This document shows positions 30,573 through 44,132 of a stretch of 64,000 nucleotides of DNA, piece by piece. The stretch is from Pedobacter puniceum (GTDB lineage: Bacteria; Bacteroidota; Bacteroidia; Sphingobacteriales; Sphingobacteriaceae): positions 186,001 through 250,000 of the forward strand of contig NZ_WKJI01000001.1 of NCBI RefSeq assembly GCF_009674685.1, read 5' to 3'. The notes beneath the pieces are model-generated. The model ran no database searches. It was not told where the DNA came from and was given only the letters and a program-made list of their open reading frames with translations. Within the stretch, counting starts at the first letter, position 1; the number at the start of each line of letters is the position of its first letter. A program made the translations under genes and the position numbers.

Positions 30573-30649
30573 TGGTAGCGGGGAGCAGGATCGAACTGCC
30601 GACCTCAGGGTTATGAATCCTGCGCTCTAACCATCTGAGCTACCCCGCC
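30573..30649 (-). tRNA. tRNA-Met (anticodon CAT), probably elongator
   Basis: A 77-nt cloverleaf on the minus strand with encoded CCA end, D-arm GCTC...GAGC, anticodon loop TTCATAA and T-loop TTCGATC. The acceptor closes with a G1-T72 wobble. The anticodon stem CAGGA/CCCTG has an A-C mismatch next to the loop. It lacks the three G-C pairs and the 1-72 mismatch of initiator tRNA, so elongator Met is likely. An Ile2 tRNA (lysidine-modified CAT) cannot be fully excluded from sequence. Confidence 0.93.
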
Positions 30650-41495: not shown

Positions 41496-42071
41496 ATGAA
41501 ATACCTAATTGTTGGTCTTGGAAATATAGGTCCTGAGTATGCTGATAATCGCCATAATATAGGTTTTATGGTGTTGGATGAATTAGCAAAACAAGAAAAT
41601 GCTAAATTTTCTATGTTAAAGCTAGCTTATTATACAGAGGTTTCTTTTAAAGGCCGAATGCTGCATCTAATAAAACCAACTACTTATATGAATTTGAGTG
41701 GCAAAGCTGTTAGTTATTGGATGAAAGAACTAAAAATCCCGATAGAAAATGTTTTGGTAGTTGTTGATGATTTAGCCATTCCTTTCGGTTCTATCAAGCT
41801 GAAACCAAAAGGCAGCCCAGCCGGACATAATGGTTTAAAAAGTATTGAAGGTTTGTTAGGTTCTAACGAGTATAGTCGCATTAAATTTGGTATTAGTGAT
41901 CATTTCCCAAAAGGCCGCCAGGCTGATTATGTTTTAAGTGGTTTTGACCAAGATGAGCTACCCGATTTACCCGCTTTGATAGAGCGTTCTATTGCTATCA
42001 TCAAGAGCTTTGTAACAGTTGGTGCAGAACTTACCATGACTAATTTTAATAACTTGAAACTGCCTAAGTAA
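41496..42071 (+). CDS. pth: Peptidyl-tRNA hydrolase
   Basis: Releases peptides from prematurely dissociated peptidyl-tRNA. The 191 residues carry all family motifs: NRHNIGFMVLDEL with the catalytic His near 21, KPTTYMNLSGKAV, VVDDLAIPFG with the conserved Asp, and KGSPAGHNGLKSIEGLLGS. It is the third gene of the tsaD-GT39-pth operon. Confidence 0.96.
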   Translation: MKYLIVGLGNIGPEYADNRHNIGFMVLDELAKQENAKFSMLKLAYYTEVSFKGRMLHLIKPTTYMNLSGKAVSYWMKELKIPIENVLVVVDDLAIPFGSIKLKPKGSPAGHNGLKSIEGLLGSNEYSRIKFGISDHFPKGRQADYVLSGFDQDELPDLPALIERSIAIIKSFVTVGAELTMTNFNNLKLPK

Positions 42072-42820
42072 GCTTTTTATTTTTGTGGATTTAAGAAAAA
42101 CTAACTATTACGCAAAGGGCTTTCTTACCCTAGCCGGGTATCGGCTTCTTTCTTTTCCTTGATGAAAGGAAACAAAAACGAGGAACGAGTTTATGAATGC
42201 CTAAGAAAAACTATAAACAAAAAATGAATAAATCAAGGCTGATGAATATTTGTTGTTTCATCTAAATAAATCTTCATCCACAATCCTGAGTGGTGGGAGT
42301 GGTTTTACTTGATGAAGGTATCTACAACACCCGTCGGATTGTTTTCTGCCAGTTTTTTATTAAAGTTTATGCAAAAGATTTATTTGACTCCAATCCAAAT
42401 CTTCATAGGCCATCATTCGTTGTAGGTAAGTTTGATTTAATATGAGTGGAATTTCCTAAATATTCGCTCTTGACTTACTTTCTACTCAGTACTTTATACT
42501 TTCTACTTCCAGAAAGGAACAACCATTCAAAAATCACAGCCTAACCCGAAACGCATGAGCAATCCCCCAGAGCCGGAAAGACGAAAAATCAGAAGCAGAA
42601 ATAATTACAATCTTGCACAACCAAGCCTATAGCGAATGCGGTTTTGCGTTCGAGTTTATAAAAACTTTCATAAAGCATAAATGAGCAAAAATAAGCGCTC
42701 ACTGTTTTTGAGTGTACATAGGCCTTGTGCGGCAAAGGCTCCTGCGGGATTGTTCAGGACTTTTGGTTCCTTTTGGTCCCGCAAAAGGAACGAGCCTAGC
42801 CGGCGATAGAGGCGGATAAT
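42072..42820. other. Hairpin-rich non-coding stretch
   Basis: No credible gene in about 750 bases on either strand. Visible structure includes TTTCCTT/AAGGAAA (42154-42172), AGCCG/CGGCT around 42132-42146, CGAATGC/GCGTTCG around 42634-42654 and a perfect 10-bp stem GTTCCTTTTG/CAAAAGGAAC (42766-42791). The TAGCCGG motif occurs twice (around 42130 and 42797). The end flows into the tandem repeats. It looks like intergenic repeat material. Confidence 0.6.
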
Positions 42821-43132
42821 TTTTCTTATAAAAGATTCCTAAACTATAATATGGTTTACGACTCATCGATGTAATCGAGAAACCATATTAAGCACTCGTT
42901 ACAAACGAGCGCAAGAAAAGAATTTTCTTATAAAAGATTTCTAAACTAAATATGGTTACGACTTTATCGATGTAATCGAGAAACCATATTAAGCACTCGT
43001 TACAAACGAGCGCAAGAAAAGAAGAGCGGATAGTTTTTCTTATAAAAGATTTCCAAACTATAATATGGTTACGACTCATCGATGTAATCGAGAAACCATT
43101 TTAAGCACTCGTTAGAAACGAGCGCAAGAAAA
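42821..43132. repeat. Three tandem imperfect repeats of about 98 bp with internal hairpins
   Basis: Units run 42821-42919, 42923-43020 and 43035-43132. Each begins TTTTCTTATAAAAGATT and ends AACGAGCGCAAGAAAA. Inside, ATATGGTT pairs with AACCATAT across about 20 bases that contain CGAT/ATCG, and CTCGTT pairs with AACGAG over a 3-base loop. Units 1 and 3 are also preceded by GCGGATA. The third copy has C/G changes such as CGTTAGAAACG. The 63-codon ORF on the minus strand across them is not regarded as a gene. Confidence 0.88.
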
Positions 43133-43136
43133 TTTT

Positions 43137-44132
43137 CTATAAACTCAATTGAAGCTTATCAAGCTCGGTACTGATAAACTTAATCTCTTCTTTTGATAAT
43201 TGTACCCTTGCAGCTTTAGCATTTTCTACCGCTTGTTTTGCGTTTCTGGCACCAACTAAGGCTATGGTAATACCTGGTTGTTCTAACGTCCAACGGAGTA
43301 CAATTTGAGAAACCAACATATTTCTTTCATCTGCTAAAGGTTTTATCTTATTTAAGAAAGCATCAACTTTAACTAAGTTTTCATCTTTAAAGAAATATAT
43401 TCCAGCTCTATGGTCGCCTTGATTAAAAACATGACCTGGTTTCATTTTACCTGTAAGTAAGCCTCTTTCTAAAGGGCTATAAGCCAAAATGCCTTTGTCA
43501 TGAGCTAAACAATAAGGAACTATTTCTTGCTCAATATCTCTTTTAACCATGCTATATGGTATTTGATTAGAAGCTAGTTTGATGTATTTCTCCGCCTCAG
43601 TCATTTGTGCTACATCGTAGTTACAAACACCCGCATACCTTACTTTCCCTGCTTTAATTAACTCTTCCACGGCTTCCATGGTTTCTTGTATTGGCGTTGT
43701 AACATCTGGCCAATGAATTTGATAAAGGTCTATATAATCTGTACCTAATCTTTTAAGAGAATCTTCACATTCTTTAATGATACTTTCTTTGGCAGCATAT
43801 TTATAAATATCTATATCCTTACCAAAATTATCTACACTTTTAAAACCAAAATCGCCTTTGTTATCATCCCAACGCATCCCAAATTTGGTGAGTATTTGTA
43901 CTTTATCTCTGTTTAATTCTTTTAGAGCTTTACCTACCAAAACCTCACTATGGCCTTGCCCATAAATAGGAGCTGTATCAATTGCGCTTACACCTTCATC
44001 ATAAGCAGCCAGCATAGCTTTAATAGCTTCTTGGTCATCTGCACCACCCCACATCCATCCGCCAGCTGCCCAAGCACCAAAAGTAATTACGGGTAATTCT
44101 AAATCTGTATCTCCTAGTTTTCTGTATTGCAT
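43137..44132 (-). CDS. Aldo/keto reductase
   Basis: An NADPH-dependent oxidoreductase of 331 residues with a TIM-barrel fold. The catalytic tetrad is seen in AIDTAPIYGQGHSE (Asp, Tyr), ILTKFG (Lys) and YQIHWPD (His). The cofactor-binding end shows ALVGARNAKQ. It is the last gene of a minus-strand operon with the TonB receptor and the sugar dehydrogenase (gaps of 12 and 9 bases), which suggests oxidation/reduction of a sugar-like compound; the substrate is unknown. The stop codon abuts the repeat array. Confidence 0.94.
   Translation of the reverse strand: MQYRKLGDTDLELPVITFGAWAAGGWMWGGADDQEAIKAMLAAYDEGVSAIDTAPIYGQGHSEVLVGKALKELNRDKVQILTKFGMRWDDNKGDFGFKSVDNFGKDIDIYKYAAKESIIKECEDSLKRLGTDYIDLYQIHWPDVTTPIQETMEAVEELIKAGKVRYAGVCNYDVAQMTEAEKYIKLASNQIPYSMVKRDIEQEIVPYCLAHDKGILAYSPLERGLLTGKMKPGHVFNQGDHRAGIYFFKDENLVKVDAFLNKIKPLADERNMLVSQIVLRWTLEQPGITIALVGARNAKQAVENAKAARVQLSKEEIKFISTELDKLQLSL

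Follow-up and report, generated by a model that had tools for sequence, protein, structure and literature searches.

The three tandem units at positions 42821–43132 of the window, the 64 000-nt stretch of Pedobacter puniceum DNA analysed here, each contain a core of about 55 nt belonging to a dispersed, structured repeat family, copies of which flank the gene of a REP-associated tyrosine transposase (RAYT) on contig C3 of the same genome. At a probability of roughly 85%, the core is a non-autonomous REP-like mobile repeat of this RAYT, and the array is its later amplification in place. A likeness to RAYT-mobilised REP elements had been proposed from the letters alone (the sequence-only reading below); this idea was right in substance, as a dispersed palindromic family flanking a RAYT gene was found, but the units are not canonical GTAG REPs.

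The region 42821–43132 was recovered as a single array by TRF (2.9 copies, 87% matches, 9% indels, score 471), with scores of at most 64 for the remaining four TRF arrays of the window. The tandem array of the sequence-only reading was thereby confirmed, but start-to-start spacings of the copies were 101 and 112 instead of a uniform 98 bp, and the similarity of more than about 90% estimated by eye held for copy 2 (91% identity to copy 1 over 75 ungapped nt) and not for copy 3 (85%). Copy 3 is longer because of an extra GCGGATA-like stretch at its left. The array is intergenic, the genes pth and aldo/keto-reductase converge on it, and the stop codon of the aldo/keto-reductase gene is 5 to 8 nt away from its end. 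In the following list, R1 denotes a covariance model of the unit, matches of which were counted at E ≤ 0.001.

41496–42071, + strand: pth (PF01195)
42812–42858, + strand: left flank of unit 1, copied with the unit and outside the dispersed element (repeat family D2; flank in G011)
42821–43132, + strand: whole tandem array of direct repeats, three units each made of the ~55-nt dispersed element and ~45 nt of local flank (TRF score 471)
42849–42856, + strand: arm ATATGGTT in the left flank of unit 1
42859–42916, + strand: conserved dispersed core of unit 1 (R1 match G000:C1:228859-228916, 75.2 bits)
42960–43017, + strand: conserved dispersed core of unit 2 (R1 match G000:C1:228960-229017, 75.2 bits)
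43072–43129, + strand: conserved dispersed core of unit 3 (R1 match G000:C1:229072-229129, 70.2 bits)
42866–42878 (unit 1), 42967–42979 (unit 2), 43079–43091 (unit 3), + strand: hairpin 1, TCGAT-GTA-ATCGA (outer-pair counts, 73 rows)
42892–42912 (unit 1), 42993–43013 (unit 2), 43105–43125 (unit 3), + strand: hairpin 2, GC-A.C-CTCGTT-ACA-AACGAG-GC, with an A.C mismatch (pair counts)
43137–44132, − strand: aldo/keto-reductase gene (PF00248)

Folding of single units, a check named in the sequence-only reading, placed all three below dinucleotide shuffles on both strands, with z values for units 1, 2 and 3 of −4.5, −3.2 and −2.7 on the + strand and −4.7, −3.4 and −2.7 on the − strand. Rfam at gathering thresholds returned only a tRNA (30576–30649) in the whole window and no match to the array, and at relaxed thresholds the region 42060–43140 gave chance-level matches only. 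A known RNA family for the units was rejected, as Rfam gave none above the gathering score.

Using 42812–43140 as query, 25 matches were obtained in the own genome (G000), mostly confined to about 50 nt per unit, so that conservation extends over less than the tandem unit. With R1, 34 matches were found in this genome, and matches were present in 8 of 60 genomes (G000 34, G008 6, G009 26, G011 19, G013 51, G018 9, G021 7 and G029 9), those of G021 being weaker (best E 5.8e-6). The search for further copies, which the sequence-only reading had recommended, was therefore positive in both own and related genomes, the opposite of the first part of the result it had named as speaking against its proposal. 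Among 32 own-genome hits evaluated by script, four share more than 10 nt with an ORF of 100 aa or longer, among them a chance hit and the 3′ end of the RAYT gene itself; a rough ORF-based survey placed many own-genome units between convergent ORFs. In G013, 12 units of the same family stand in a row (G013:C1:88226-89486, L071) at a spacing of ~106–112 bp, with a long palindromic spacer.

The unit of ~55 nt is composed of hairpin 1 (CGAT-NNA-ATCG), a linker, hairpin 2 (CTCGTT-NCA-AACGAG) and CGCAAGA; the two hairpins are ~13 nt apart and the unit ends in CAAG. For a structural alignment, 24 loci were scanned with a pattern in which hairpin 2 and the right arm of hairpin 1 were obligatory (at most 3 mismatches) and the left arm of hairpin 1 was free. 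From 94 hits, 8 were dropped as chance or wrong-orientation hits, and the remaining 86, of which 73 were distinct, gave alignment A1 with the consensus nnAAAAAnCGATnnAATCGnnAAACCATnTTAAGCACTCGTTACAAACGAGCGCAAGA. Because the pattern fixed hairpin 2 and left one arm of hairpin 1 free, the unbiased structural evidence is that for hairpin 1. Its outer pair is GC in 29, UA in 21, AU in 15 and CG in 1 of the 73 rows, with 6 rows unpaired and 1 gapped. Over the whole structure, 91.9% of cells pair (85.0% in shuffles), changes on both sides of a pair were counted in 63 cells (19.2 in shuffles), and the covariation score was 0.164, slid versions reaching at most 0.050 and shuffles 0.045. Hairpin 1 is supported by these compensatory changes, and in relatives it can be replaced by other paired stems, namely TGGTT/AACCA (G008) and TCGTT/AACGA (G018, G029). 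The consensus structure of RNAalifold by itself retained hairpin 1 and not hairpin 2, support for the latter coming from single folds and pair counts: 96.4% of its cells in A1 are paired, and its outer pair (38–58) is CG in 59, AU in 8 and UG in 2 of the 73 rows, mostly with an A.C mismatch below the stem.

The CTCGTT/AACGAG stem pointed out in the sequence-only reading was present in all three window units. The other stem it had named, ATATGGTT/AACCATAT, matches exactly in the first two copies and has one arm change in copy 3, as had been said, but did not survive as the first stem of the unit, since it is confined to the array and its left arm is part of the co-duplicated flank. By script, 7 of 84 units were assigned an 8-nt arm, within ~40 nt upstream, that complements their linker with at most 1 mismatch; one of these 7 was empty (no arm definable), and exact complementarity was limited to window units 1 and 2. 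As a stem of the family, ATATGGTT/AACCATAT was rejected on this count; in the family at large, the inner CGAT/ATCG forms the first hairpin. Tests for the known REP tags failed in the 73 units: GT[AG]G was not conserved at the 5′ hairpin foot and occurred anywhere in the unit in 1 forward and 12 reverse, and CGTC was found on either strand in 1. The last six bases vary (GCAAGA in 33 rows, GCAAAA in 7, TCAAGA in 6, GCAATG in 5, GCAATA in 5), and the 3′ terminal AG, CT on the other strand, might conceivably mark a C|T cleavage site.

The sequence-only reading had also called for a search for a RAYT/Y1 transposase, and by a PF01797 search combined with the ORF list such a gene was located outside the window at G000:C3:277923-278501 (− strand). 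Its product of 193 aa (P0001) matches PF01797, passes the NCBIfam model for REP-associated tyrosine transposases (NF047646, 96.7 bits, cut-off 80) and stays below that of the IS200 equivalog (25.3 bits, cut-off 55). By sequence, solved structures gave only weak matches, to transposases of the IS200 type (best E 0.26); the structural claim therefore depends on a predicted model (mean pLDDT 88.1), for which the best match was 4er8_A, a RAYT bound to a REP hairpin (Foldseek E 5.3e-8; VIA-align Z 16.2 with rmsd 2.2 over 142 residues, the runner-up having Z 11.4). In 24 aligned RAYTs, the HUH residues H60 and H62 are invariant and the tyrosine Y144 is nearly so. By its profile scores, the structural match and these residues, the protein is a RAYT, of RAYT rather than IS200 affinity, with a predicted HUH/Y1 fold and catalytic tyrosine. 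It carries the motifs NHLH, WQ and YIHNNP, and its named relatives are nearly all Bacteroidota. A second RAYT of the genome (43% identity; G000:C3:138794-139333, L103) is accompanied by a different inverted repeat, GCACAAGTC...GACTTGCGC.

Four R1 matches lie within 600 bp of the RAYT gene on C3 (277775–277832, 277879–277935, 278529–278586 and 279097–279154). Five of the 60 genomes, namely G000, G013, G009, G018 and G029, have a RAYT with an identity of 60% or more, and in all five R1 units adjoin it. The G009 gene (L108, G009:C15:102729-103276; 87% identity) is broken after residue 148; the match resumes in another frame with a stop, and the genome still has its 26 units. Among named loci outside model building, R1 matched at E ≤ 0.001 in 11 of 63, comprising three Mucilaginibacter MAGs, Pedobacter sp. 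BS3, Paludibacter, Petrimonas and other Bacteroidales. R1 matches were present at 16 of 93 loci. Of the nearest upstream units there, 12 of 15 were inverted, and of the nearest downstream ones 13 of 16 were forward; these were counted by hand, one locus had no upstream unit within 250 nt, and weak matches were included (L108 downstream, E 0.026; L110 nearest, E 0.0065). The arrangement of units around the RAYT gene is thus usually, not uniformly, inverted.

Perfect triloop hairpins of at least 6 pairs were counted at 76 RAYT loci and amounted to 5.47 per kb within ~250 nt of the gene and 0.48 per kb farther away, with NCA loops in 104 of 206 near and 15 of 107 far hairpins. Labels for nine stem types were assigned to 40 of 69 rows of the RAYT tree, many of which are close relatives and not independent cases; the labels require 12 changes on the tree, compared with 19–24 in 300 shuffles and a minimum of 8, and stem type thus follows RAYT phylogeny. 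Two observations count against the link: G008 and G011 carry 6 and 19 units and no RAYT above 44% identity, for which loss of the gene has been assumed, and the 58% RAYT of G021 is flanked by GGATTNCAAATCC hairpins and not by an R1-type unit. These hairpins are those of the Solitalea longa locus L151, the RAYT proteins of the two being identical, which along with the remaining named hits points to Sphingobacteriaceae as the probable source of the window.

At the pth locus, no unit is present in G009, one degenerate unit in G011 and three in the window. As the window units share their left flank with the single unit of G011, the array would represent duplication in place of one unit; on sequence comparison, it probably arose by local duplication of the unit with ~45 nt of flank, of which the ATATGGTT arm is part, and not by three insertions. 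Window copies 1 and 3 both carry GCGGATA, which adjoins the upstream dispersed repeat. Locus G000:C1:989540 corresponds to two units with a repeated piece of flank in G013, a partial unit in G009 and none in G011. No clean empty site or target-site boundary was obtained at the pth, G000:C1:989540 and G000:C1:981028 loci, because in addition to absent, partial or duplicated units they show other rearrangements.

That the RAYT itself produced the three copies, through repeated insertion or rolling-type copying at one site in place of ordinary tandem duplication, would accord with the recurrence of unit clusters, such as the 12 in a row in G013, and with the presence of several beside RAYT genes. 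However, the repeated segment takes in ~45 nt of non-element flank, plus GCGGATA in copies 1 and 3, and this flank is also found beside the single G011 unit; separate insertions of ~55 nt would not bring flank along, and this origin is quite unlikely. The array could also have been retained to serve the convergent pth and aldo/keto-reductase transcripts as a common 3′ end element, acting as terminator or stabilising the mRNA, with the transposase accounting for its origin only. The position between convergent genes, a few nucleotides from a stop codon, the frequent placement of own-genome units between convergent ORFs and the stable folding on both strands are in favour of this, but no terminator-like site was detected in the window units, and because G009 has no unit and G011 a degenerate one, a 3′ end structure is not required at the pth locus. 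As the main explanation, retention for this purpose is unlikely; as a secondary one, a role at transcript 3′ ends is a possible candidate. Since MITEs and VNTRs likewise give dispersed or tandem short repeats, the units might have no relation to RAYTs and be plain VNTRs, or derive in the manner of MITEs from another insertion sequence. This is very improbable given that own, related and named genomes repeatedly show them specifically associated with one RAYT clade, and dispersal in 8 of 60 genomes excludes a purely local VNTR.

For the preferred reading, a RAYT-mobilised repeat amplified in place, the following course is proposed by analogy with the transposase family. In single-stranded DNA, e.g. 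the lagging-strand template, the unit would fold into its two hairpins, which a RAYT dimer may recognise by loop and stem, not via a GTAG guide. The catalytic tyrosine would then nick beside the unit, and the RAYT would move or copy it into other, mostly intergenic sites. In an ancestor, one unit would have been inserted between pth and the aldo/keto-reductase gene; ordinary tandem duplication, through slippage or unequal exchange, would later have amplified it with ~45 bp of flank. Tentatively, the units may even form a distinct class of Y1 substrates, in which the stem of hairpin 2 is clade-specific, hairpin 1 is recognised by shape (its stem varies and stays paired), both hairpins carry triloops, a GTAG-type guide is dispensed with and one dimer possibly binds both hairpins. 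If true, a single two-hairpin unit does the job of an inverted REP pair (REPIN).

The kind of repeat is already known, and this family is a further member. In the passages of Quentin et al. 2018 (PMC6006769) on TnpA-Y1 subclass 2.6 (Bertels group 5), the subclass is described as mostly from Bacteroidetes, with the motifs NH[LIV]H, WQ and YIH[QN]NP, an average of ~179 aa and genes flanked by ‘atypical secondary structures’ without GT[AG]G, found by eye, which have copies elsewhere in the genome. P0001 appears to fit this subclass by its motifs (NHLH, WQ, YIHNNP), its 193 aa and its Bacteroidetes host, and its flanking repeats likewise lack GT[AG]G and have dispersed copies; the two-hairpin anatomy, covariation and triloop described here go beyond those passages. 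TIRtrons/TIRYTs, as presented by Di Nocera et al. 2013 (PMC3733652), consist of a RAYT-like gene enclosed by terminal inverted repeats, which in some cases are double-palindromic; they resemble the present system in this arrangement and in the copies dispersed in the genome; among the terms tried in the text of PMC3733652, no Bacteroidetes genus was named. With canonical GTAG REPs, BIMEs and REPINs (group 2 or 3 RAYTs), the units share that they are short, palindromic, intergenic and RAYT-associated, and the A.C mismatch low in hairpin 2 recalls the bulge of the E. coli REP; they differ in having no conserved GT[AG]G, two unlike hairpins per unit and tens instead of hundreds of copies. IS200/IS605 elements also belong to the Y1/HUH superfamily and have subterminal hairpins, whereas P0001 falls under the IS200 equivalog cut-off and most present copies are small, gene-less units. 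The finding of a structured repeat dispersed in the genome, with copies flanking a RAYT gene of the same genome, agrees in these respects with a REPtron in the wide sense, in which the cognate RAYT would process or mobilise the repeat. Relevant RAYT/REP literature comprised PMC6006769, PMC3733652 and PMC8266576. In open-licence PMC full text, four 15-mers of hairpin 2 were absent and no description of the family was found; it may already be listed in the supplementary repeat table of PMC6006769.

For the window itself the result is an ordinary one, a repeat-family member with a local triplication. By the covariance model and the two-hairpin architecture, repeats of subclass 2.6 become searchable across Bacteroidota, and the units provide a concrete substrate for studying DNA recognition by a Y1 enzyme that has no GTAG guide.

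Just upstream of the array, at 42080–42812, a further dispersed repeat of ~600–730 bp was noted, with 49 own-genome matches (7 above 600 bp) and no ORF of at least 80 aa; several of its copies adjoin RAYT-type units. In G011, a copy of the last 26 pth codons (73% identity; G011:C16:239915-239992, L094) adjoins the single unit; after it come two small ORFs (72 and 100 aa), which we take, by eye, to resemble a ParE-type toxin-antitoxin pair.
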